This document shows, piece by piece, positions 1-18,278 of a stretch of DNA of 38,233 bases. Both the position numbers and the translations under genes were made by a program. This DNA is from Candidatus Thorarchaeota archaeon (GTDB taxonomy: Archaea > Asgardarchaeota > Thorarchaeia > Thorarchaeales > Thorarchaeaceae): assembly GCA_030612005.1 (NCBI GenBank), contig JAUWOU010000016.1, forward strand, positions 1 to 38,233, in the 5' to 3' direction. The first letter of the stretch is position 1; every line of letters begins with the position of its first letter. The notes under the pieces are model-generated. The model searched no databases and was not told where the DNA came from. It was given only the letters and a program-made list of their open reading frames with translations.

Positions 1-207
1 CCTAGAGACCCTTGTTTCAGCCCACCCTCCCAAGAAGAGAACCCTCTTGGACTTCATACGGATCATCCATTCAGTTGTTATAGTGACCCCAGTTCCCTCT
101 TTGCCACCTGCTATGGAGGTCTGCACTTGAATTGATTCATAGCTCTCTGCCGTTCCAGCGAGTACCTGTTCAACAGTTGGTCTGACTATCGTATCGTTTC
201 CGGTCAA
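1..207 (-). CDS. Unknown protein, 3' part cut off by window edge
   Basis: An open frame of 69 codons runs leftward from a TTG at 207 to base 1 without a stop, so the C-terminus lies outside the window. The start is chosen because a purine-rich AGGGATGTGA stretch lies just upstream. The visible protein begins MTGNDTIVRPTVEQVLAG and continues with Thr/Ser/Gly-rich, mixed charge sequence; I see no signal peptide and no motif that I recognise. It lies 13 bases after the stop of the small ORF at 221-484 on the same strand, so the two could be co-transcribed. Coding status is supported only by the long open frame and start context. Confidence 0.45.
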   Translation of the reverse strand, partial: MTGNDTIVRPTVEQVLAGTAESYESIQVQTSIAGGKEGTGVTITTEWMIRMKSKRVLFLGGWAETRVSR

Positions 208-220
208 TATTCACATCCCT

Positions 221-484
221 CTAATTAGTCGTCATATTTACAATCACAGAGTCTTTCAGCGAAAACACCTCTGTAGGTTCGTACAGAATGGAAAATCCAT
301 GATTTGAGTCTTCTGTAGATTCGTACATAGTACAATCCACCAAATTCGCGCTTTCTGTATGTTCGTACAGAGGGAGAAGTGTAACTAAAAACTCCACTGG
401 ATAGATATTTTTGTAACTTCCAGTAACTGTAAGTGACCTTAATATATATATCATAATTCTAATTAGTGGAATTACTTTAACCAC
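221..484 (-). CDS. Small hypothetical protein with 14-residue repeats
   Basis: An 87-codon frame starting with GTG, preceded by GAAAGG about eight bases upstream. The N-terminus is hydrophobic (PLIRIMIYILRSLTVTG), possibly a short membrane or signal segment. The C-terminal half holds three in-phase repeats built on Tyr-Glu-x-Thr-Glu (LYEHTES, MYESTED, LYEPTEV), spaced exactly 14 residues apart and matching a 42-base DNA period. The function is not recognisable. An alternative reading is that the DNA repeat, which is palindromic, is a protein-binding array and the frame is incidental; the retained codon phase and 14-residue period mildly favour coding. It precedes the truncated gene at 1-207. 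Confidence 0.35.
   Translation of the reverse strand: MVKVIPLIRIMIYILRSLTVTGSYKNIYPVEFLVTLLPLYEHTESANLVDCTMYESTEDSNHGFSILYEPTEVFSLKDSVIVNMTTN
271..370. repeat. Three palindromic repeats with a 42-bp period
   Basis: The motif CTGTAGGTTCGTACAG occurs at 271-286, as CTGTAGATTCGTACA at 313-327 and as CTGTATGTTCGTACAG at 355-370. The starts are exactly 42 bases apart. Each unit is an imperfect palindrome (CTGTA, six bases, TACAG). 42 bp is four DNA turns and also 14 codons, so both a same-face binding array and a protein repeat fit. The bases between units are not conserved. Confidence 0.75.
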
Positions 485-656
485 GATAAACCTTTCTATT
501 TCTTCTTAACAATCAGTTTTCTATTTTTGCTTCATAAGTTTATTAATGAATATGTAATAGAAAAGAGTAGGAGTTCATAACCAATCTTGGGAACAAGAAT
601 GGGAGTGAACTCGAAAGAGATAGGTCAGAAGTTTATTAGTGATTCAGGTGAAATGA

Positions 657-2393
657 ATGGGTCGCTCCAAGGGTGTAATCGTCAGCGTGAAGGTCCCGAT
701 AAAATGGGACGCCATGACTGAGAGACAGAAGACTCGCCTCAACCGGATTACTGGAAGAGATAGTAGAGTCATCAAGGCCTATCTTGGAGTGATTGAACGA
801 TATGAGGATAAGTTACTGACAGGGAAGAAGCGTACAAGGATTAATACCTCAAGACTTGAAGAGCTGACCCTCACAGCATCCAAGGGTAAAGCTGATAGAA
901 GTTACGTACCCCATGACTTCAAGGGAAGATTCCCGAACATATCTGTGAACGAGTTTCAGGAGTGTCGGGACACATCCATTGCCATGTGGCAGAGCTATCT
1001 TGAGCGTCGGGGATCAAAACCTCTCAGAACTAGGGGATATTCCACACGGAAGATCCCACGCTTTGCCTTTACTCAACGGTTTGAGGTTGTGTATACTCCA
1101 GAGTTTGAAATTCGACACTGGTTGAAACTTAGAGATTCCTTAGATTCATTTTCAAAAGGAAAGAAACATCATGATAAACTCATGATTCCACTCTCCATCT
1201 CGTCATTCCATCTCAATCGTATGCAAGAGGGAGAGGTCAAGACAGTTCGAATCTTCAAGGACTCGAAGGGAAAGTGGTGGGCCATCTTCACGGTGACCCT
1301 TGAGGTTGAAAGTATTGATTCTACTGGAAGACCTCCTGCTATCCTTGGAATTGACCTTGGGATAAACAAGACTGCATGTTCAATCCTTCTTACTAAGAAG
1401 GGATACAGACACGTCCGCTACTGGAGACAGAAGGACAAGCTCAGACGTATGAAGGTTCTTGATAAGCGGGTTTCATCTCTACAAAGAGAGAAGGAACAGC
1501 TTATTGCAAAGGGTCAGAGTCCTGATAGAGTGACCACTCAGCTCAGGAGTCTAAGCGGAAAGCGAGAACGAGTCAGTAAAGAGTATGATAAGAAGCTGGT
1601 CAGAGATATTTCGGACTATATCAAAGAGATTACCGAGAATTATGACCTCTATGTATCAATTGGACAATTGAAGGGTATTAGAAACTCCGCTCGAAAGGGT
1701 AATTTCAAGGGACGAAGGTTCAGAGGAATGATCCATCGCTGGGCTTTTGCCCGAGTCCGTGAGATGTTAGGTCACAAGCTTGCCTCCCTTGGATTTGACT
1801 CTAAGAAGTTCAATGCAGTCCCTGAACAGTGGACCTCTATCATGTGTCACAAGTGCGGACACAAGGGAATCCGACCCAAACAGAACCTCTTCATCTGCAA
1901 CACCTGTGGAATAAAACTGAACGCCGACCTGAATGGTGCTCTCAATATCGGAAAGCGCCTTATTATGCTCATCCCCTCACTGAGAGATGAGAACGGACTA
2001 GGGATGTGGCTCACTCCTAGAGATAGAGTCATACTGAAAGCCCGGAGGAAGATTCGTTCTTCTGATAGGAAGTCCGCACTCCCCCAGAGGACACCAGCCT
2101 CCAAAGGGGAGTCCGTGGCCGACTCTTATGACCAGGCGACTCTTGAGTCGTTTGCGAGGAGTAAAGACCCTGCCATGGTAAATGCTGTGGAAACACCGTC
2201 TGCTATCACACCAACTGGTGAGTGTGAATCAATGCAGCGGACAGAAGCCGAGTCCCATCGGAGGAACGATGTTCCAGTGAAGAGGGGCAAAGCTCATGAC
2301 AATGATACTGACTCCGGTCAGGAACAAGCTGGCGACAGCAGTCGTGAGAAAGGTGGAACACAGGAGTCTCTTACAGTTCACTCACAATTGTAA
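657..2393 (+). CDS. tnpB: TnpB-family RNA-guided nuclease-like protein, altered RuvC-II
   Basis: TnpB (IS200/IS605/IS607 OrfB) proteins are RNA-guided DNA nucleases with a split RuvC domain and a zinc ribbon. Here RuvC-I is GIDLGINK with Asp233, the zinc ribbon is CHKCG (397-400) and CNTCG (414-417), and RuvC-III is NADLNGALNI with Asp424. The RuvC-II glutamate, normally in a (V/I)ExL context, is Gly336 (YVSIGQLKG). A Glu lies at 390 in VPEQWTS, just before the zinc ribbon, where Fanzor-like proteins carry a relocated catalytic Glu. The last ~140 residues are polar and low-complexity, unlike the family core; in TnpB loci this 3' region often overlaps the guide RNA. No tnpA is adjacent. The start ATG has AGGTG seven bases upstream. 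It ends 30 bases before the convergent pfkB stop. Confidence 0.88.
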   Translation: MGRSKGVIVSVKVPIKWDAMTERQKTRLNRITGRDSRVIKAYLGVIERYEDKLLTGKKRTRINTSRLEELTLTASKGKADRSYVPHDFKGRFPNISVNEFQECRDTSIAMWQSYLERRGSKPLRTRGYSTRKIPRFAFTQRFEVVYTPEFEIRHWLKLRDSLDSFSKGKKHHDKLMIPLSISSFHLNRMQEGEVKTVRIFKDSKGKWWAIFTVTLEVESIDSTGRPPAILGIDLGINKTACSILLTKKGYRHVRYWRQKDKLRRMKVLDKRVSSLQREKEQLIAKGQSPDRVTTQLRSLSGKRERVSKEYDKKLVRDISDYIKEITENYDLYVSIGQLKGIRNSARKGNFKGRRFRGMIHRWAFARVREMLGHKLASLGFDSKKFNAVPEQWTSIMCHKCGHKGIRPKQNLFICNTCGIKLNADLNGALNIGKRLIMLIPSLRDENGLGMWLTPRDRVILKARRKIRSSDRKSALPQRTPASKGESVADSYDQATLESFARSKDPAMVNAVETPSAITPTGECESMQRTEAESHRRNDVPVKRGKAHDNDTDSGQEQAGDSSREKGGTQESLTVHSQL

Positions 2394-2422
2394 GATATGG
2401 GTTCATACTACCTAGGTAATAC

Positions 2423-3385
2423 TCATCGACGGCGACCCCTTTGTCGAGGTTTGAAAGTCTTGAGAATTGAATCGATTGAAATGTTGTGCTTACGTAACAA
2501 TCTAGCTACTTCTTCTAGGCTTGGTTGCCCATTCTGTGACCCTTCGTGCATTATTGTAAGCGCAGCTGCTGCATTTGCCACATTGAGTGCCTGTGGAATT
2601 CTCTCAGATCTTATCCAAGCTGTTATGAAACCAGCTGCGAATGAATCTCCTGCACCTAACGCGTCTTTGACAGGCACTTCGAATACCTGAGAAGTACAAT
2701 ATTCAAATCCATCAGTTGCAATGGCGCCTTTCTCTCCCATTTTGAGAATTACAATTCCTGGAAAGGTCTTTGCGAATTTCCGTAGTGCAGACTCAGTCGG
2801 TTCTATCTTAAAATATTCCTTCAATTCATGACTGTTCAGGAACAATAGATCAGTATGCCTTAGAATCTTATCAAAATCGAGGTCTCCAGCTGCTCTCCCA
2901 GGGTCTAAGGATAGGATCATTCCATGATTTGTTGTGATTTCTGATGCTCGATCTATCATCATTGGAAATGAACCCGATACATGAATGATCTGCGCATCAA
3001 CAACAGTATCCTCTTCAAAGATTCTTTTCTCAAGGAATTTATTGGCACCAGGTTTAGCTACTACTATCTGGTCATTCTGGGGGTCATGTGCATAGAAGAA
3101 AATCCCTGTTTCGTGGTTATCAAGAACGAGAATGCAACTTGTATCAACACCTATCTTTGTTAGCTCTTTGATTACAAGTTCACCATAGACATCATTTCCC
3201 AAACAACTAACGAGAGTGGTTTTGATACCTAATCGAGTTGCTTGGGTAGCGAAGTTTGCTGCAGAACCTCCCAGTGAAACATGACCCTTTTCACACATGA
3301 TATGGTCATTCTTGTTAGGAAGTCTATCGACATACATATCGATGTCGATATTGATTCTACCAATTGCTACAAACTCGCCTACCAA
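2423..3385 (-). CDS. PfkB-family carbohydrate/nucleoside kinase
   Basis: A sugar or nucleoside kinase of the ribokinase/PfkB superfamily, 320 aa, the usual length. Both family signatures are visible: the N-terminal glycine-rich substrate motif GGSAANFATQATRLG (from residue 39) and the C-terminal anion-hole/catalytic motif DALGAGDSFAAGF with Asp247 as likely catalytic base. The protein ends in an Arg-rich tail (PRQRGRRR). The substrate cannot be deduced; cytosolic. It starts 12 bases after the argF stop on the same strand, so it is probably in the same transcript. Its 3' end lies next to the tnpB insertion, which may have brought the final codons close to foreign sequence. Confidence 0.88.
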   Translation of the reverse strand: MVGEFVAIGRINIDIDMYVDRLPNKNDHIMCEKGHVSLGGSAANFATQATRLGIKTTLVSCLGNDVYGELVIKELTKIGVDTSCILVLDNHETGIFFYAHDPQNDQIVVAKPGANKFLEKRIFEEDTVVDAQIIHVSGSFPMMIDRASEITTNHGMILSLDPGRAAGDLDFDKILRHTDLLFLNSHELKEYFKIEPTESALRKFAKTFPGIVILKMGEKGAIATDGFEYCTSQVFEVPVKDALGAGDSFAAGFITAWIRSERIPQALNVANAAAALTIMHEGSQNGQPSLEEVARLLRKHNISIDSILKTFKPRQRGRRR

Positions 3386-9029: not shown

Positions 9030-9644
9030 ATGTTCTCTGTATCTCAAGCTGCGCTCAGGTTAGGAGTGTGTGTCCGGACCATCCATCGATGGGACCGGGC
9101 AGGCAAGCTCCATTGTTTTAGAACTGTGGGAGGGCATCGCCGAATCCCTCTCTCAGAGATCAATCGACTCCTTGGACTCATGCATCGTGACCTCATCGAA
9201 CAACCAACAAAGAAACGTTGTGCCATCTATGCCCGAGTTTCCAGCCATCGTCAGAAGAAAGCTGGTGATCTTGACCGCCAACTCAAAACCCTCACAAAGG
9301 AATGTCGGACACGCTTCAAGATTCGTCCTCTGGTCTTCACCGATGTTGGTTCTGGACTCAGTATGCTACGACGCGGACTCGCCAAATTCTTCAGACTTGC
9401 CAAGAACGGTTCTATCCACACACTTCTCATCACACACAGAGATAGGCTGACTCGTTTTGGCTTGGAACTCCTAGAACGTATTCTCAATGATTATGGCATC
9501 AGGTTGGAGGTTCTTTATCAACCCAAACAGCAATCCCCGCAGGAAGAACTTGTCACCGACCTTATGGCACTCATCGCTTCCTTTTCAGGTCGGGTCTATG
9601 GACTTCGAGCTGCGGCTCACAGATCGTCATTGCTCATTGAATAA
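9030..9644 (+). CDS. tnpA: IS607-family serine recombinase (TnpA)
   Basis: Transposase of the IS607 type. Residues 1-50 are a MerR-like helix-turn-helix (MFSVSQAALRLGVCVRTIHR, then GKLHCFRTVGGHRRIP). The serine recombinase domain follows with nucleophile Ser in CAIYARVSSHRQ (about residues 65-76), LLITHRDRLTRFGLELLE and the C-terminal IASFSGRVYGLR. The 204-aa length is normal and no frameshift is visible, so it may be active. A TATA-like AT-rich stretch (TTTAAATAAATATTTG) lies at 9004-9019. Unlike standard IS607, the next gene is not tnpB but a large RecB-like protein; a tnpB lies 6.5 kb downstream in the same orientation. Confidence 0.95.
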   Translation: MFSVSQAALRLGVCVRTIHRWDRAGKLHCFRTVGGHRRIPLSEINRLLGLMHRDLIEQPTKKRCAIYARVSSHRQKKAGDLDRQLKTLTKECRTRFKIRPLVFTDVGSGLSMLRRGLAKFFRLAKNGSIHTLLITHRDRLTRFGLELLERILNDYGIRLEVLYQPKQQSPQEELVTDLMALIASFSGRVYGLRAAAHRSSLLIE

Positions 9645-9771
9645 CTTCCCAATATTCCGTATCAGTTTCTGTAATCAGTACAATCTCCAGATATAATGTA
9701 GATGAAAGAAGTGGTCGGGGTACTTCCCTAACAGCTACTTGAAATATCATTCTGTGCCAAAAATGTTCTTG

Positions 9772-9789
9772 CATTTCAAAGTTGAAATG
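9772..9789. promoter_or_regulatory. Perfect palindrome upstream of RecB-like gene
   Basis: CATTTCAAAGTTGAAATG has two 8-base arms (CATTTCAA / TTGAAATG) around AG. It lies 31 bases upstream of the GTG start at 9821, next to a TATA-like GTTTATTAG (9791-9799) about 25 bases before that start. This spacing suggests a leaderless transcript whose promoter is overlapped by an operator. The regulator is unknown. Confidence 0.5.
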
Positions 9790-9820
9790 TGTTTATTAGT
9801 AATCAGAACCTGATTGTAGT

Positions 9821-12800
9821 GTGGCTCCCAGAAATTCACAGATTAAATATCCTGACAGAGCAATGAAGCTGTCTAAGATTTCTGCAATGAATACGCTACT
9901 TTATTTCATCAAAAATGGAGCTGATATTCTTCCTAAGAAATATGAAACGTCACTTGTGGTTTGGGAAGAGACTGTAAGGAAAAGAGCTGAACTAAGTAAA
10001 GAAAAAGATCCAGACAGATTTGTACCTGTTTGTGATGTTGAAAAATATCTGAGAAAGAATTTCCTTTCTGTAGTCTTCAATACTACGGCTCTTTATGGGA
10101 ACACGGAGACTAAGAGAGTATATTCATGGAAGGAAGGGGCAATCGGTCCATTGAATGTCCTGTTGAACATAGCAGGTGCGCACCTCAGGTTTCTTGCAAT
10201 GATAAGATATCCGTTCCCTTTGCCTAAAAAAGGGGGGGTTAGAAGGACCAACAAGAATGGAAAGCAATACTTCCAAACAAATCATGTGTACTGTGGTACA
10301 AAAAATCGTCCCACAGTGATCATCACACATCCCATGCTCCCATCACTGGATTTTGTGGATGCAATTCGAGGTCATTTAGTAGAACTCTGCCGACAATGTT
10401 TCATCCATTCTGTCCCTATTAGTATCGCTTCTAACTACATCAAGCTCCTGACCTTCCGATTGAGGCCGCTACTAGACAGGTTCTATTTGGCTGGTTTTGA
10501 GAAGAGGAAACAGACCTTGGAATTCACAAAGAAATCATTGGCTACCTTAGAATCAGTGTTGAAGAGAGTCAAAGGGCAACATGGGATCACATCAGGATAT
10601 CCAATACGGATGACAGGTAGTCTAGATGACACAAACCCCCTCTCTATTGGACTGGACGAACTTGTTGGAAATATCAATAATGTAAGGATACATTCGATTG
10701 TTACAAACCGTCGAAACAAACACTTGGTCGATGGAGATGATGTAGCGCAATTTGCCAGTAAGATAAACACAGCTAGGTCTCGACTAGGGACACAGATCCA
10801 TAAACGGTTAGCTTGGGGGACAACTCAACCTTCCTCTGCAATGAGTGTAATGTTGGGGGGGGATTATCTAGCAAAAGACAAGACGGGATACATCTTGGCC
10901 GCCGAGATACCTGTGAATTCAGGACGTGGAAAGGTAGACTACACACTCATTGTTAGGAGAATACCCAAGTACATGGAAAACATACCTGACTCTACCTCAG
11001 GTTATTGGCCTCCCAGACTTGTTCTAGATATTAAGACGAAGACCGCATTCAATTGGGGGATCAGTGCTAAGACCCATAACTCGGACAAGTCCTTTATCGT
11101 AGACTTCCCATTTACACGAAGGTTTCTAACTGATTCAGAATGGGATATTCTCATCAAGAATACTCCATCTCTAAAGGAACAGAAACAAGTAGATGCTTAT
11201 TCTGAAGCGTTATTACAAGAGTATAAGGCAATCGCAAAAGATGACCATACACCACCCTCATCAATTCTAAAAGGAATAATTCTTGTTGATGGTCATGAAT
11301 TCACCTCACGCTCAAGACGCATCTTACCCAAATTCATCAAGACTGTTTACAAACAAGTACACCAAGACCTAGTGGAAATGCGTACAAAGAAACCAACTGG
11401 GGAGTTGAAATACCCTCGAACGTTGTTTGAACCTACATTTAGGTGGGCACTAAAAACTCGAATCGCAATTGTGCTCGCTCCTTTCACAATTCCGAAAGGT
11501 AGTTCTCTTCAAGACTTTCTACCTCTACCCATTCCTCTACACGCATTCACTGAATTAAACCCATTTGAGCATAGTTGTAACGGAGTGAAGCGGTTTATTC
11601 TATACCTTTCTGCTGATGGTGTGAGCTCTCCAGGCGATAGTGCAGGTTGGATTGCACAGCATTGGCATGGGTTGAAGTTTGCTTACGAGCTTGCTCACAA
11701 ACGCAATTTCAGGAGGGTGGTCTGGATTGATCTTGCAGGACAATTTACAGACGAGGTGATTCGAGCTGCTACATTGCGATTGGATTTTCATCATGAAAGA
11801 GTAGTGAAATTCTGTAATGATATCAAGTTCTTAGATTTTTCAGCAGAGAAAGAGAATGCACTATTTTCAGGAAACGAACTACCTTCGGTAGACTCGATAG
11901 GATCTCGTATCAAGAACTGTGATCTCGTTATTGTGTCAGGTATCGATACCATTAGACAGATTGCTCCAAAGGAACTCGAAGGGTTAGTTGATTCGCTGTC
12001 GATACACATAGCGAAGGCAACATCTTTACAAAAAACATGCACGCTTTGGTTTGGAACCCCTCAACCCCTCGCTACTACTTCAGAGCTGTACAAGCGGCCG
12101 CAACTGCGACCATTTAGATACGATTCACCTTTACAACCATACATCAATGAGATAGTAATTAATATCCCACTCCCACCTAGAAAGGGAAAAAGTAAGGTTC
12201 CAATATATGATCATGTAAGAGGATTGGTGTCCATTGTTCCGGATATGAAAAAAGGAATTAGATGTACAACAATTGGAATTCCTCCTTTGATTGGATGGTC
12301 CAAACGATTCCTGTCACGAGCGCCATCTGATAAAGAGCAGAAGTTGATGGATAGACTTCGTGCTAGACCACCTAGCGCATTTCGTTGGTTGAAATCTCAA
12401 GGAACACCCATGTTCAGTAATGACATGGCAATTGAGTTATTTCCTTTCTTAGAGCCTTGGATACATAAATCAATCAAATCTTCTAAACCTGAAGATATCA
12501 AAATAGATCAGAATTTGGAGAGCTTAAAGGTTAAGAAGAAGAAGTTGGGTAGAAAAAGGGGGACAAAGGGATACAAGGGACCCAATTCACGTTTGACATT
12601 TTCAGTAAATTTGTGTAAACCATCCCCTAGTTCAATAAACACAAAGAGAGAGTATGGACAGACAGAATTGATTCTCAAACCGCTTGAATCAACTCCACTC
12701 CCTCCTCATCCTTCTGAGTTAGAAGATTCAACGTTCTCAAGTGATGAAGCTGCAAGAATTGAACTAATACGGTTACAAGACACCTGCAAATTATTACAAG

Positions 12801-14101
12801 GTCTTGCTTCAAGTTCACCTTATTTGAAGGAGCAATGTAAAGAGTTTGTCAAGGTCTTAGCAAAAGCTGTCAAACTTCCATCGATGGATATGTTACAGAA
12901 GTTTACTGAATTCTTCAAGAATAGCAGATACTTCAATCAAATCTGGTACAGATTGCTTTGGGGAAGGGATTGGTTGGATGGTTGGCCAATGCCAAGAGCT
13001 CTGAAGAGCAAAATGGCGAAGTTGCGAGTCGACAGAAAAGACGTGCTTCAGTACTATGGTAATTATCTTATTTTCATGATAGCAAGCTTGGCTGAACATT
13101 ATGATCTTCACCAAACAGAGCTACAGTTTCTTTGGGAGATGGTTCGGTCATGGGTAACATTGCAGATGGGAGCAAAACCCAGAGCAGGAGTACAACCTGA
13201 ATCAGAATATGATACTGCTAGTGTATATGCACAACTTAAAGCAAAAGCTACTTTTTGGAATAGAACACCATATCCAACAACTACAACCCTGTCTGACATC
13301 CGATATGGTCTACGTGTTGATGTAACAAAGAGCAATCCTGGTAACTATCGCTGGTATATTTTTGAAGATGGGGCCTATAGCAAACGGTTCGTAGCTGGAT
13401 GTGTTGAACAAAGTGCTGTTAAGTTAGGGCCATTACCACTGATAAGAGCGAATACGGTGACATCACTTGATGAGATATCTTCTCTTGCAGATTTCGAGTT
13501 CACGAACTGTATGGTTCGTCCTTTTTTGATAGCTGAACATCAAGGTATCAATATTCTTTACGAAACAGAACAAGCACTTCAAGGTAAAAAGGAACTTGTT
13601 GCATTTACAAATCCATCCTCATTTAATTGGGATCCTGTAGGGATGATTCGTTATGGAACTAGGTCACGAAATGCAACTGCTAGATTGAGGTACATCAAAG
13701 TCCTCACTTTGGGGATGCAGTATCCTTCTATTCAAAATCAACTACTCCCAGAACGACCTGCTGATTTTGGTGAGAGAATATTCGAGCATATCAAGACGAT
13801 TAGTATCCAGACTCAAGATGTAACTAGAGTGAAATGCAGATTGGAAGGTACAATTGACAAAGGAAGTATTTCATTCGAAGCTCGTACAAAAAAGCGGTGG
13901 ACCAAGGTCGGGCAGAATATTGACCATAAGGATAGGAATCAAGCTATACAAGCACTTCTTTTACCATACAACCAAGGGATTGCGGTTCAAGGAAAATATT
14001 CGTGGGACCCATTATCAGATTTTCATTTTCGGTTTGGAGGAGAAGAGCTTAGAAAAGAAGTAGTTTCTAGAATCCAACTTGATAAGGAGGAAGGTGTATG
14101 A
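9821..14101 (+). CDS. Large RecB-type PD-(D/E)XK nuclease with degenerate RadA-like domain
   Basis: No family name is recognisable over the full 1426 aa, but the middle carries a complete RecB/Cas4-type nuclease signature: His327 (LGTQIHKRL), Glu362 and Asp373 (AAEIPVNSGRGKVDYTLIV), Asp403-x-Lys405 (LVLDIKTKT) and the QxxxY motif Gln456-Tyr460. Residues ~590-760 resemble a Rad51/RadA core: RRVVWIDLAGQFTDEVIRAA parallels the 'VIYIDTEGTFRPERI' strand and CDLVIVSGIDTIRQ the Walker B strand, but the Walker A position reads SSPGDSAGW, so nucleotide binding is probably lost. A basic patch (KVKKKKLGRKRGTKGYKG) lies near 905-925. The C-terminal 500 residues are unassigned. Start is GTG with no Shine-Dalgarno (likely leaderless). 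The stop is one base from the start of the RadA-like gene, implying a functional pair. Confidence 0.75.
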   Translation: MAPRNSQIKYPDRAMKLSKISAMNTLLYFIKNGADILPKKYETSLVVWEETVRKRAELSKEKDPDRFVPVCDVEKYLRKNFLSVVFNTTALYGNTETKRVYSWKEGAIGPLNVLLNIAGAHLRFLAMIRYPFPLPKKGGVRRTNKNGKQYFQTNHVYCGTKNRPTVIITHPMLPSLDFVDAIRGHLVELCRQCFIHSVPISIASNYIKLLTFRLRPLLDRFYLAGFEKRKQTLEFTKKSLATLESVLKRVKGQHGITSGYPIRMTGSLDDTNPLSIGLDELVGNINNVRIHSIVTNRRNKHLVDGDDVAQFASKINTARSRLGTQIHKRLAWGTTQPSSAMSVMLGGDYLAKDKTGYILAAEIPVNSGRGKVDYTLIVRRIPKYMENIPDSTSGYWPPRLVLDIKTKTAFNWGISAKTHNSDKSFIVDFPFTRRFLTDSEWDILIKNTPSLKEQKQVDAYSEALLQEYKAIAKDDHTPPSSILKGIILVDGHEFTSRSRRILPKFIKTVYKQVHQDLVEMRTKKPTGELKYPRTLFEPTFRWALKTRIAIVLAPFTIPKGSSLQDFLPLPIPLHAFTELNPFEHSCNGVKRFILYLSADGVSSPGDSAGWIAQHWHGLKFAYELAHKRNFRRVVWIDLAGQFTDEVIRAATLRLDFHHERVVKFCNDIKFLDFSAEKENALFSGNELPSVDSIGSRIKNCDLVIVSGIDTIRQIAPKELEGLVDSLSIHIAKATSLQKTCTLWFGTPQPLATTSELYKRPQLRPFRYDSPLQPYINEIVINIPLPPRKGKSKVPIYDHVRGLVSIVPDMKKGIRCTTIGIPPLIGWSKRFLSRAPSDKEQKLMDRLRARPPSAFRWLKSQGTPMFSNDMAIELFPFLEPWIHKSIKSSKPEDIKIDQNLESLKVKKKKLGRKRGTKGYKGPNSRLTFSVNLCKPSPSSINTKREYGQTELILKPLESTPLPPHPSELEDSTFSSDEAARIELIRLQDTCKLLQGLASSSPYLKEQCKEFVKVLAKAVKLPSMDMLQKFTEFFKNSRYFNQIWYRLLWGRDWLDGWPMPRALKSKMAKLRVDRKDVLQYYGNYLIFMIASLAEHYDLHQTELQFLWEMVRSWVTLQMGAKPRAGVQPESEYDTASVYAQLKAKATFWNRTPYPTTTTLSDIRYGLRVDVTKSNPGNYRWYIFEDGAYSKRFVAGCVEQSAVKLGPLPLIRANTVTSLDEISSLADFEFTNCMVRPFLIAEHQGINILYETEQALQGKKELVAFTNPSSFNWDPVGMIRYGTRSRNATARLRYIKVLTLGMQYPSIQNQLLPERPADFGERIFEHIKTISIQTQDVTRVKCRLEGTIDKGSISFEARTKKRWTKVGQNIDHKDRNQAIQALLLPYNQGIAVQGKYSWDPLSDFHFRFGGEELRKEVVSRIQLDKEEGV

Positions 14102-14102
14102 G

Positions 14103-15077
14103 ATGAGAAGAATTCTGAAACGAACCCCTCTTGATCAGGTTCCTGATCTTTCAGATGATATTCATTCAAGACTTGAAAAGATAGGCATCACTACTGCGGA
14201 ACTTCTAGCACATGGTTTTCAAGAAGGAGTATCATCCAATATTGGAATTTCAACAGAGAGAATGTTGGAACTCACCAGGCTTGCAAGGCAGGTAATTGGC
14301 CTTGGTGATTTCAGGACTGCTTCTGAAATGAAAGAGAAAGATGCTACTTTACTTGAAACTGGGTTCGAGTGTGTTGACAATGCTCTAGATGGAGGTTTTA
14401 GAGCTGGAAGTATTATTGAGTTACAAGGTCAACAATGGGCTGGAAAAACGCTAATGTGTTCTCATCTGGCGATAAGAGCACAACTCATCAAAACCGATAA
14501 TGGTTCTGTACCAAAGGTAATCTGGTACGACAGCGACCAGAGTTACAGGAAGAAAAGAATCAAAGAGATAGCATACCGATATCGGATAGACCCCAAAGTA
14601 GCTCTACGCAATATCATTCTATTTGATATCAAAAAGAAAGGCAAAATGGAACCTGATTTCGAATCCATGCGTAGAACACTTACACAACACCATGTTTCGC
14701 TTGTGATCATAGATTCACTTCGTGGTGCATTAAAGTACTTGGAAACTCCTTCCACTCTCAAGAACTATGTCGCCAAAATAAATCAAATGGCTTTAACTAC
14801 TGGCACTCTTTTTGTTTATACTAATAGGTCACAGATTGTGTTCAGCAGGAGTTCAACACCGAAACACAAACGAAATGGTCCATTGTCAATAGAGGTTGAT
14901 TATGGCCTCCAATTCTACCTAAATAGAGAGCGAGAAAGAATCGTTATCACACGCGATTTTCATGGGGGTTCAGATATGAAATGTGAACTGTATCTTGGTC
15001 CTGGTGGATTCTTTGAGGATCGTGCTTCTCGAAATCTAGAGGTTCAACGTGTACAACGTTACCTAAAAAGAAACTGA
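14103..15077 (+). CDS. RadA/Rad51-like ATPase
   Basis: RecA-superfamily ATPase, 324 aa. The N-terminal ~60 residues resemble the RadA helix-hairpin-helix domain (VPDLSDDIHSRLEKIGITTA). The core follows: Walker A GQQWAGKT (109-116), the VIWYDSDQSYRKKRIKEIA strand-helix (about 139-157) matching RadA's 'VIYIDTEGTFR', and Walker B LVIIDSLRG (200-208). A Thr-Asn motif (FVYTNRSQIVF) occupies the place of RadA's 'TNQ'. Divergence from canonical RadA suggests a specialised paralogue. I prefer the ATG at 14103, two bases after the upstream stop, with GGAGG at 14086-14090; in-frame TTG 14079 or GTG 14094 are alternatives. It is coupled to the RecB-like gene and convergent with the next gene. Confidence 0.85.
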   Translation: MRRILKRTPLDQVPDLSDDIHSRLEKIGITTAELLAHGFQEGVSSNIGISTERMLELTRLARQVIGLGDFRTASEMKEKDATLLETGFECVDNALDGGFRAGSIIELQGQQWAGKTLMCSHLAIRAQLIKTDNGSVPKVIWYDSDQSYRKKRIKEIAYRYRIDPKVALRNIILFDIKKKGKMEPDFESMRRTLTQHHVSLVIIDSLRGALKYLETPSTLKNYVAKINQMALTTGTLFVYTNRSQIVFSRSSTPKHKRNGPLSIEVDYGLQFYLNRERERIVITRDFHGGSDMKCELYLGPGGFFEDRASRNLEVQRVQRYLKRN

Positions 15078-15085
15078 GATTTTCT

Positions 15086-15742
15086 CTAGGATCGAGTATC
15101 CAATAACTCATTGATTTTATTCATTACAGATTCAGTATCCAAAGATGGTTCAGCTCCAATAGCAGTTTTCCAGATATGATCAAGCAACTTCTGATTCAAA
15201 CCCCGTTCATTTATAGCTAAGAATTGTTTTATGGCTGTAAGTCCGGCAACTACCTGTTCTATCAGTCTGACATATTCGTATCTCACCGAAAAACTGTTCT
15301 CTTGAGCAGAACGAATGATTTGGGGGATTGTTACCTTTGATCCAAACAAATGCTTCGTTTTCTTTAATGTAATTCTTCGTGTTGAAAAACCAGCATTGTC
15401 GGTTTGGAGTTTCCATAATTCAGCGTCCTGTTCATTTGCGAATAATCTAGATTCCTTCTTGTTAATTCTTCTCTCTGCAATTACAAGAGTGTTGTCAAAT
15501 AAAGGAGGGTAAAGCTTCAGTCCCCTGAACGGTTTAGTTCCAAACACCATTACTCCCATTTTGCGTATAACCCGTTTGTGTCTATCAGGAACCTCAGATG
15601 GTAACAGGGGTTCTTTACCAAATTGTGTGACAAGAAATCCCGACACAAACGTTATGGTCCTATAATCATACTTGAGATCCCAGATTGACTCAAACCTAAT
15701 TCCTTTCTTCTCTTGATTTCCTTTTACTACAGCGGAATTCAC
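15086..15742 (-). CDS. Unknown protein convergent with the RadA-like gene
   Basis: A 218-aa frame, no recognised family. Residues about 20-45 (KYDYRTITFVSGFLVTQFG) and 60-100 look like alternating beta strands with charged loops; the C-terminal half is helical (VRLIEQVVAGLTAIKQFLAI). Its stop lies eight bases from the RadA-like stop. The start is uncertain: GTG at 15742 has no Shine-Dalgarno, while the frame stays open to 15823 and the extra codons (EGLTYDILQSDEFGNETIQ) look protein-like. A GAGGGGG sequence sits where a ribosome site for a non-standard start would be. The iteron-like cluster at 15880-15947 is upstream and may control it or the tnpB on the other strand. Confidence 0.65.
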   Translation of the reverse strand: MNSAVVKGNQEKKGIRFESIWDLKYDYRTITFVSGFLVTQFGKEPLLPSEVPDRHKRVIRKMGVMVFGTKPFRGLKLYPPLFDNTLVIAERRINKKESRLFANEQDAELWKLQTDNAGFSTRRITLKKTKHLFGSKVTIPQIIRSAQENSFSVRYEYVRLIEQVVAGLTAIKQFLAINERGLNQKLLDHIWKTAIGAEPSLDTESVMNKINELLDTRS

Positions 15743-15879
15743 TTGGATAGTTTCATTACCAAATTCATCGCTTTGAAGTATATCATAAGTCAGTCCTTCT
15801 TGTGTGATATTGTTAACCCCCTCTTATTAGAATGACATTCTGCTTTGATATCTACCCACATCCTTTAATCCTTTCGAAC

Positions 15880-15947
15880 CCGTACACCCGTACACATATT
15901 GTTACTTTCTTGTACGGCCGTACACATATTCTGTAAAACCCGTACAC
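15880..15947. repeat. Iteron-like cluster of CCGTACAC motifs
   Basis: CCGTACAC occurs at 15880, 15888, 15918 and 15940. The copies at 15888 and 15918 extend to CCGTACACATATT, a 13-base perfect direct repeat exactly 30 bp apart. The copy at 15918 is also half of a perfect 14-bp palindrome, TGTACGGCCGTACA (15911-15924). The cluster lies in the 391-base gap between the minus-strand unknown gene and the plus-strand tnpB. It could be an operator array, a replication iteron or a transposase-binding end. The rest of this gap is AT-rich. Confidence 0.8.
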
Positions 15948-15979
15948 CATTGCCAATTTTGGTATCTATTTTGTAGGTT

Positions 15980-15991
15980 ACTTATAAAAGA
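15980..15991 (+). promoter_or_regulatory. Probable TATA box upstream of the long tnpB
   Basis: ACTTATAAAAGA is a good archaeal TATA box, located downstream of the iterons and about 145 bases before the tnpB start, so a long 5' leader would be transcribed. Two short direct repeats (GAGTTTATAT near 16043 and 16088) within the leader are additional TATA-like candidates closer to the gene. Confidence 0.45.
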
Positions 15992-16133
15992 GGTCCTTAT
16001 AGAATATCTAATCAAAATAGCACTTTAGCTTCATAATATACGAGTTTATATGTTACTGTTGGTAACTAGTATAGTTCTTAATTTGTATGAGTTTATATCC
16101 CCTTCCAAGGAGAAAATTCTGAGGATATAGTTG

Positions 16134-18278
16134 ATGAAAAAGGAAAAGCGGCGTCGACCCCGCTCGTGTAAGAAGCCTAAGGCATCTGAACAACAGACAA
16201 TGGTCGATAACTATTATAGTTCTTCATCAACAACACCCCTCCAAACAACAGGATTGAAGTACCTAGTCGAATCATTCACACTCTGCTCCGTCGATAGAGA
16301 AGTGAATAAGAAGGGGAAGGGAAAAAGACCTGATCCTAGGTATAGACGAGTAAAGGCTGAAATCGTACAAGAAAGAGTTCAAACTATGACCGGACGAAAG
16401 GTCATTGATACAGACCTCTCTTTGATGGGTATGTACTTTGAAAAGTATGTTGAGTTGGTGAACCTTGTTCTTGAACGTGTCTACTCTGATAGGAACCGAG
16501 TTGATTTTCTTGGTGAGGAACTTAACTCCTATAGAGGTCAAGGATATACCTTGCTAAAGAAGGAAGATTATCTTTCTTACAAGGACAACAAGGATATCCA
16601 AGTCCAATGCTTTGAAAGAATGTATCGAAATGTGCTTGAACATGTAGCTCGTGTAATTCATTCTAACTGGCTGCGAAGGCAACTGATGAAGAGTGCAATT
16701 GAGTATGTCAATGAAGATAGGACAGCTTTGATTAGACTATTGAAGAATAAGCACATCTCTTCTAAGATGATCAAGGACGTACGAGCTCAATGTGAGAGCA
16801 CAAAGAACAATGGAACTGGGTACTACCACACAGTTTCTGTCCTTAAACAATTGAGGAAAAAGCTTGATGAGCATATCCTTACCGAACGAGGTGAATCCCT
16901 TGGATTTCGTGGAAGACAGAGGAAGAGAGTGAGTAAATATCTCAAAGATGAAACAGAATCTATTGGGGCTCTAGCTTCAGTGGACGTCCTTCTCCATGAA
17001 TTCATATCTGATGGCTACCCTTTCTCAATTCCTAAGATGGAATCCCATACTGAGGATTTCTCAGCTAGTACTGAGAACAGTCCGGGTCAAGGATACTGGT
17101 ATTCAAAGGACAAAGAACGGGATAACGAGGTCCTCTTCTTCCTCAAACTCCCTGAACCCATCGAAGGGATCGAAGTAGAGGGGTCTCCTTACAGCACAAA
17201 GACTCTTTCCTTCAGATTTCTAGACTGGTTACCCAGAGCTGTTGCTAAGAATAGAGCAAAGGTAGAGGTTGCTGAAAAAGAAGGGAAGTATAACCGGGCT
17301 AGGAAGTTGAATTTCAGAGCTCGCAAGTTCGAGGATATGCATCAGCAATTGTTGAACACTATCGAGCTACAGCATGCAACCTATCAATACTCACGACTCA
17401 AATCCAGAAAGGAGAAGGATGATACGAAGGTGAAAAAGCTTCAAGAGAAGATCACACACCTAAGGAAAGCACGCAAGTGTGGACCTCCTCGACTTCTCTT
17501 AAGAGATAACCGAGTCACACTACAGATACCATTCCTGCCACTAACGAGAGAGATGATTGATGAGGAACTTGGACCACGGACCTATAGAAGGAAAGCAGGA
17601 GCTGACCGTGGAGTTCGAGTACCCATCGTCCTTTCTACTCGTGATGGCAACGGAGGATTTGTAGATGAGATGGTTTCCTTTGATGAACTGGTTTCAAAGA
17701 GGGACCTACTTAGAGAACAGACAAAGTGGCTCACATCCAGCGTCACTTTGATGAAAAACAACTGGGAACGAAAGCATACTGACAGAACCTATCCCGGTCA
17801 CTTACTCAAGAAGCAAAGACATCTTTCTGCGATATGGAGGAAAATCCGTCGACTGGATAGAGAGATTGCCAGACAGGTCGCTTCTCAGGTTGTATGGTTC
17901 TGTGAAGAGTACGGAGTCAAGACACTGTATTTTGAGAACCTTAAGAACTACACTCCTCCAGCTGGTTGGGGAACTCTCTCTTGGAGGTTGAGTTCTAATC
18001 TCTGGTCAAAGGTCTTGGATACAGTGACCTATATGCGTCAGTCTCTTGGACATAGGAGAGGAGGAGTATGGACAGTGAGTCCAGCATGGACCTCCCAGAA
18101 GTGTCATGTGTGTGGGGAAAAAGGTGTTCGGGTTGAATCGGAAGGTTCCACTGAAGAGAAGAAAGGAGGAGAATACTTCTACTGCGAGAGCTGTGGATGT
18201 TCACTCCATGCGGATGTCAATGCCGCAAGAAACATTATTGATGTAAAATCATCCAAACCCAGTGCCGTTGCTGGGTAG
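16134..18278 (+). CDS. tnpB: Long TnpB/Cas12-like RNA-guided nuclease
   Basis: C-terminal half is a TnpB/Cas12 RuvC nuclease: RuvC-I AGADRGVRVPIV (Asp about 491), RuvC-II LYFENLKNY (Glu about 601), zinc ribbon CHVCG and CESCG separated by ~25 residues, and RuvC-III LHADVNAARNI (Asp about 694). All three catalytic acids are present. The segment before RuvC-I is ~490 residues, whereas typical TnpB has about 200, so the 714-aa protein approaches small Cas12 size; no CRISPR array is nearby. The N-terminus is very basic (KKEKRRRPRSCKKPK). I start at ATG 16134 with GAGG ten bases upstream; a TTG one codon earlier is the only in-frame alternative nearby. It ends 46 bases before nep1. Its probable partner transposase is the tnpA at 9030. 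Confidence 0.9.
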   Translation: MKKEKRRRPRSCKKPKASEQQTMVDNYYSSSSTTPLQTTGLKYLVESFTLCSVDREVNKKGKGKRPDPRYRRVKAEIVQERVQTMTGRKVIDTDLSLMGMYFEKYVELVNLVLERVYSDRNRVDFLGEELNSYRGQGYTLLKKEDYLSYKDNKDIQVQCFERMYRNVLEHVARVIHSNWLRRQLMKSAIEYVNEDRTALIRLLKNKHISSKMIKDVRAQCESTKNNGTGYYHTVSVLKQLRKKLDEHILTERGESLGFRGRQRKRVSKYLKDETESIGALASVDVLLHEFISDGYPFSIPKMESHTEDFSASTENSPGQGYWYSKDKERDNEVLFFLKLPEPIEGIEVEGSPYSTKTLSFRFLDWLPRAVAKNRAKVEVAEKEGKYNRARKLNFRARKFEDMHQQLLNTIELQHATYQYSRLKSRKEKDDTKVKKLQEKITHLRKARKCGPPRLLLRDNRVTLQIPFLPLTREMIDEELGPRTYRRKAGADRGVRVPIVLSTRDGNGGFVDEMVSFDELVSKRDLLREQTKWLTSSVTLMKNNWERKHTDRTYPGHLLKKQRHLSAIWRKIRRLDREIARQVASQVVWFCEEYGVKTLYFENLKNYTPPAGWGTLSWRLSSNLWSKVLDTVTYMRQSLGHRRGGVWTVSPAWTSQKCHVCGEKGVRVESEGSTEEKKGGEYFYCESCGCSLHADVNAARNIIDVKSSKPSAVAG

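Follow-up and report, generated by a model that had tools for sequence, protein, structure and literature searches.

The locus considered here raises the question of whether a TnpB protein without the customary RuvC-II glutamate is a dead enzyme, an RNA-guided repressor or a nuclease with a relocated catalytic residue, and whether it bears on the origin of the eukaryotic Fanzors. The gene (tnpB) lies near the left edge of a stretch of 38,233 nucleotides (contig JAUWOU010000016.1 of assembly GCA_030612005.1, from a Candidatus Thorarchaeota archaeon), referred to below as the window. The analysis points to a catalytically competent TnpB of the alternative-glutamate (Ealt) type with a D233/E390/D424 triad, which probably forms the right end of a Thorarchaeota transposon without TnpA and works as proposed below. 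At the level of sequence, comparisons established a conserved Ealt triad, a structured RNA, mobile full and RNA-only (solo) forms, predicted guides that coincide with the flanks of insertions, and linkage to a giant gene.

The product of the open reading frame was assigned to the NCBIfam family guided_TnpB (NF040570; 109.1 bits against a cut-off of 100) and contains the Cas12f1-like TNB domain of Pfam. The codons for D233, E390 and D424 and for a glycine (G336) at the canonical RuvC-II position were read directly, and the reading frame was as given in the preliminary description of the window. In profile alignments, G336 fell on the catalytic Glu (QMEDLTNIR) of solved Cas12f enzymes, and E390 on the Pro of DPQYTS, ahead of the TS..C..C zinc motif, in solved Cas12f/TnpB-type nucleases. 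Canonical TnpB-like genes of the same genome have a Glu in RuvC-II (VVIENL, TVYFEDL, TLYFENL) and a second site without one (e.g. SPAWTS). Ealt is a Glu six residues ahead of the zinc CxxC, for which a regular expression, D{P}G-x(120-160)-ExxxxxxCxxC-x(12-18)-CxxC-x(4-8)-D, was given by Yoon et al. 2023 (PMC10711439). This expression matched the window TnpB exactly, over residues 233-424, and was matched by 62 of 86 family sequences, fragments included. The earlier suggestion that Glu390 is the relocated glutamate was thus borne out, the residue occupying the published position relative to the first CxxC and being invariant in the family.

An AlphaFold2 (AF2) model of the protein (predicted local distance difference test, pLDDT, 78.8; predicted template modelling score, pTM, 0.51) places G336 at the end of strand 330-337; E390 follows directly on strand 385-389. 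In the Fanzor active site the Glu is on a loop after the fifth strand (PMC11423790), and the modelled position of E390 would be in line with it. Foldseek matches of the model comprised Cas12f, TnpB and mimivirus Fanzor2 (9b0l); both in profile and in fold comparison, Cas12f and TnpB were better matches than Fanzor2.

The 86 non-redundant family sequences were aligned, and residues were counted only over sequences with a residue in the column. Glu390 was kept in 80 of 80 and Asp424 in 78 of 78, Asp233 in all but one of 73 (72/73) and Gly336 in 78/79; the zinc cysteines were present in all sequences except one. Neither a sequencing error nor a decaying enzyme could produce such conservation, and a misread base at the RuvC-II codon, raised previously, can be dismissed on these counts. 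Members of the family come almost entirely from Thorarchaeota genomes, in agreement with the Asgard host named before, and were found in 27 of 59 sampled relative genomes, nearly all from the same family as the window's genome. Distant relatives (33-35% identity) occur in metagenome-assembled genomes of Hermod- and Borrarchaeota, and weak matches were obtained in Natrinema and Natronorubrum. Neither for tnpB nor for the giant protein was a relative detected among the viral contigs of IMG/VR, and spread by viruses was rejected on this ground.

An omegaRNA is predicted at the 3' end of tnpB. When the gene was compared with its closest paralogue (contig C205, 84% identical), 19.8% of positions differed before base 1991, with a third-position bias (56/38/170 over the codon positions); after base 1991 the differences fell to 7.8% and were unbiased (12/10/9). 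The end of the bias at this base indicates that constraint at the protein level is limited to about residues 1-445. Stand-alone copies of the last 413 bp likewise start sharply at base 1991, and the last ~133 codons of tnpB overlap the RNA. Other tnpB paralogues are linked to a second group of RNAs, whose structured 3' core has 31 pairs, 14 of them with changes on both sides, and 98.0% of cells paired; none of 500 shuffles reached the observed values, and slides of 1-3 columns gave 39-55% paired. The covariance model of this second group found the window RNA at 2285-2403 (E 3.6e-13), so that the two groups are homologous. No Rfam family matched the omegaRNA.

The tail of TnpB (residues 446-578) was suspected to be a separate conserved protein, since solo copies keep a 136-aa open frame. 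This was rejected, as variable sites were spread evenly over the codon positions (34/38/39 in solos). The frame through the RNA was nevertheless open in nearly all group 1 solo copies (L025-L034), even though their substitutions are free of codon bias.

Sequence comparison shows that the 3' end of the transposon is the structured RNA gene of about 413 nucleotides and that its intact form, of about 7.8 kb, carries a giant gene divergent from tnpB. The copy on contig C205 is a 7,843-bp insertion, present as a single unit with a target duplication of approximately 14 bp, and holds nothing but tnpB with its omegaRNA, a giant gene for 1,651 aa and, between tnpB and the giant gene, a gene for ~220 aa; an IS607 serine recombinase is absent from this intact element. 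Giant-gene homologues, whose products range from 1,400 to 1,900 aa, and tnpB form 29 head-to-head pairs in Thorarchaeota genomes, a list taken from contigs already known to hold tnpB, and 26 of these pairs are spaced 233-287 bp. Searches of Pfam, NCBIfam, PHROGs and PADLOC gave no match for the giant protein, and a profile search of the PDB gave nothing significant. The protein has a conserved E362..G370..D373..[D/E]-x-K405 pattern, like that of PD-(D/E)xK nucleases, and a region modelled like Rad51/RecA/KaiC folds (Foldseek E ~2e-4).

In the window, the open reading frame at 1-207 matches a locus of genome G020 that also has the ~220-aa gene; it may be linked to the divergent gene of the element, and the match suggests that the giant partner of the window tnpB is off the contig. 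The placement of tnpB next to housekeeping genes holds for the right flank only, the left side being the same mobile element running off the contig. The absence of tnpA was confirmed for the whole genome (91% complete), which has no Y1 TnpA (PF01797), and an IS605 origin was ruled out on this basis. Three spaced short inverted repeats (CTGTAnGTTCGTACAG-like), with the look of operator sites, lie between tnpB and the divergent gene (window 260-385); the C205 copy has the same three-repeat arrangement upstream of tnpB (L180), with the sequence TGTACGnnCGTACA.

Insertions were compared with empty counterparts in sister genomes at 15 sites, and lengths are good to about 2 bp. In sister genomes without the element, right-flank homology started no more than 1-3 bases from the predicted guide start at most sites; for the window copy it began at base 2405 in G013 and G005, in which the site is uninterrupted. 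The right end of insertions is fixed, and the left end is complete (AAAATGTAAGAAAATATGTAAGATTT) or truncated at various points. The coincidence of right-flank homology with the guide start indicates that the predicted guides are the right flanks of insertions, an IS605-type logic. Shortened forms, with tnpB only (as in the 2,133-bp insertion on contig C140) or RNA only, are shown by these comparisons to have inserted at many sites. Target duplications were, by alignment, about 2, 2, 6, 6, 7, 8, 8, 7-10, 10, 11 and 14 bp, and about 10-12 bp of target were lost at three sites. The solo insertion L052 (contig C11) has a target direct repeat of about 59 bp or more, far longer than the others, and direct repeats of 9 and 12 bp were found at two further sites. 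Counted over 16 sites (14 of the 15 compared and the two direct-repeat sites), the insertion preference was R at -2 (15/16), A or C at -1 (15/16), A at +1 (12/16), T at +2 (13/16) and A at +3 (12/16), with RA^ATA as the consensus. Relatives appear to share the orthologous element of copy C64 and the solo copy L049, which suggests that not all insertions are recent.

The own genome gave 49 covariance-model matches for the omegaRNA against about 14 tnpB 3' ends, and at least 24 complete solo copies were recognized (8 of group 1 and 16 of group 2). They carry a common upstream block of ~54 bp (..gtatgagttcatatactcacat..) that contains a TATA-like motif, looks alike in the two RNA groups and is not found at the corresponding place in tnpB. 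Directly after the end of the RNA (..TGTAAGATxTxGGTT), their 3' flanks, the predicted guides, all differ. A pooled search of the own genome for other sites that the guides might target, in which 40 of 60 candidates were scored, found mostly the guides themselves. The guide of L054 (contig C15) has a 94% match over 34 bases at C244:21929-21962, a possible target or a duplicated gene. A local tandem duplication repeats the predicted guide of the solo RNA L051 (C262:7544-7620) ~50 bp downstream.

The following mode of action is proposed. TnpB would load the RNA of its own locus and the RNAs of stand-alone copies, the solo guides being the DNA immediately to the right of each insertion, and would cut the matching site where it is uninterrupted, be it on a sister chromosome or in incoming DNA. 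The repair that follows would favour retention or copying of the element, a scheme already put forward for the TnpB of IS200/IS605. The insertion step would be performed by the giant protein, a role suggested because no known transposase is present and both genes move as one unit.

Other readings of these data were considered. The preliminary description had offered a nuclease-dead TnpB which, with the omegaRNA, would bind and block transcription without cutting, as a TldR-like repressor. The missing canonical Glu, the lack of tnpA nearby and the many stand-alone guide RNAs, which could act as regulators, are in keeping with this; however, the replacement Glu is invariant, the other catalytic and the zinc residues are retained as counted above, and the genes are multi-copy and mobile. 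Moreover, most of the solo RNAs examined are insertions that sister genomes lack at the corresponding site, and their guides, being the flanks of these insertions, do not look like conserved guides that match promoters. A repressor was rejected on E390 conservation and mobility as highly improbable, and the window TnpB is very probably an active nuclease. If TnpB is active, the solo RNAs could still be inert debris, that is, 5'-truncated insertions with no part as guide RNAs. High-copy elements leave debris, and the ragged left ends and the truncation of several copies fit this, but the solo copies have a common upstream block with a TATA-like motif that tnpB lacks at that place, compensatory changes keep the RNA structure across solo and tnpB-linked copies, and RNA matches exceed tnpB in several relatives, in which solo RNAs are common (17 against 2 in G035; 8 against 1 in G024). 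Debris was considered an unlikely explanation.

A close relative or ancestor of the eukaryotic Fanzors in an Asgard archaeon is favoured by the Ealt common to both families, by the presence of mimivirus Fanzor2 among the profile and fold matches and by ghost RNA loci like those of the Spizellomyces punctatus Fanzor. The combination of DPG with Ealt is the fingerprint of Fanzors and of cyanobacterial pro-Fanzors, and Ealt TnpBs with D-Phi-G form a separate clade apart from these (Yoon et al. 2023, PMC10711439). RuvC-I of the window TnpB reads DLG, DPG with Ealt was found in none of the 86 family sequences, and Fanzor2 is, as stated, the poorer match. By this motif test the protein is an Ealt D-Phi-G TnpB, of a known kind, and no Fanzor ancestor; Fanzor ancestry as first put was rejected, and even kinship has a minimal probability.

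A competent Ealt TnpB within a transposon remains the preferred reading, against which the following weigh. The conservation of E390 is compatible with catalysis and falls short of proof, and the pTM of the AF2 model leaves the domain packing uncertain. RNA expression and guide length are deduced from sequence, and the role of the giant protein as mobiliser from linkage; the giant partner of the window tnpB itself is probably off the contig, outside the window.

The motif is a known variant. The element that combines it with a giant partner protein, scattered guide-RNA genes and unusual insertions adds a new variant to the TnpB systems and may turn out to be a transposition system of a new kind. 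Neither the omegaRNA and its copies elsewhere in the genome nor the giant protein had been noted in the preliminary description. More specifically, and tentatively, the element may represent a transposon type outside the IS605, IS607 and DDE classes, in which an Ealt TnpB is combined with a giant PD-(D/E)xK / RecA-like inserter and dozens of solo RNAs with promoters serve as dispersed guides in trans; this is possible, though somewhat less likely than not. Such a type would have its right end fixed at the 3' end of the RNA scaffold and 5'-truncated copies, its target being duplicated over 2-14 bp or shortened by ~10 bp, and its insertion may be likened to target-primed copying or to capture at a staggered break.

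From the sequence data, a suspected dead TnpB emerges as an alternative-glutamate enzyme of Asgard archaea with good support, and Ealt by itself is no marker of a Fanzor ancestor. The solo RNAs would constitute, in a prokaryote, a set of stand-alone guide RNAs that can be compared with the 'ghost' system of the fungal Fanzor. The ends of the element, its guides and the preferred insertion sites can be read from the empty sites, which opens cleavage and mobility to direct tests, and the giant protein is a candidate new mobilisation enzyme. The features of the window, including a second mobile element, are given in Table 1.

Table 1. Coordinates of the tnpB locus and of the second mobile element in the window
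Feature	Position	Strand	Remarks
tnpB, alternative-glutamate type	657..2393	+	578 aa; protein constraint ends near residue 445
Asp233, RuvC-I (GIDLG)	1353..1355	+	codon GAC
Gly336, canonical RuvC-II Glu position	1662..1664	+	codon GGA; aligned to Cas12f Glu
Glu390, alternative RuvC-II glutamate (VPEQWTSIMCxxC)	1824..1826	+	codon GAA
Asp424, RuvC-III	1926..1928	+	codon GAC
Conserved region upstream of tnpB	518..656	+	common to other copies of the element
omegaRNA scaffold, ~413 nt (predicted)	1991..2403	+	sharp 5' boundary in all solo copies; nucleotide-level conservation
Structured conserved 3' core of omegaRNA	2285..2403	+	covariance model built from the other RNA group only
Predicted guide, first bases of right flank	2404..2423	+	guide length assumed
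Unknown gene, 5' part, divergent from tnpB	1..207	-	cut by contig edge
Second mobile element	9030-18278		
IS607-type serine recombinase	9030-9644		
Stand-alone giant-protein homologue	9821..14101	+	1426 aa
Rad51/RadA-like ATPase	14079-15077		
Unknown gene	15086-15742	-	218 aa
TnpB with canonical Glu	16131-18278		715 aa; like L023 and L024, an example of the canonical Glu arrangement in the same genome

The Thorarchaeota element resembles the TnpB elements of IS200/IS605 and IS607 in having its omegaRNA at the 3' end of tnpB and a guide that would be the right flank, and differs from them in the lack of a Y1 TnpA in the genome and in its variable target duplications. Elements of the IS605 family are not known to generate variable target duplications. 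The IS607 family does not make them either (PMC6188088). With TldR it shares a TnpB-like protein without the canonical RuvC-II Glu and the absence of an adjacent tnpA; unlike TldR, the window family has a complete D/E/D triad with the Glu relocated, and is mobile and multi-copy. The aloposons of Heimdallarchaeum (PMC8813620) are likewise Asgard mobile elements encoding very large proteins, but they integrate at tRNA genes and carry tandem genes for 3,000-6,000 aa, whereas the giant protein described here has 1,400-1,900 aa, its gene is divergent from tnpB and the insertion sites are many. The Ealt D-Phi-G TnpBs of Yoon et al. 2023 (PMC10711439) agree in the Glu before CxxC, in D-Phi-G and in all spacings; that work has a bacterial and Fanzor-related focus, whereas the proteins studied here occur almost exclusively in a single Thorarchaeota family, and their element lacks TnpA and has a giant partner protein. 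SpuFz1 of Spizellomyces punctatus (PMC10432273) also has the alternative Glu, many omegaRNA loci without a nuclease gene and no transposase seen; it is eukaryotic, with DPG and 30-nt terminal inverted repeats, in contrast to the archaeal DLG protein, ragged left ends and divergent giant gene of the present element. The omegaRNAs of such 'ghost' loci support cleavage and editing by SpuFz1 (Saito et al. 2023, PMC10432273) and are, by analogy, the nearest functional precedent for the solo RNAs of the Thorarchaeota element.
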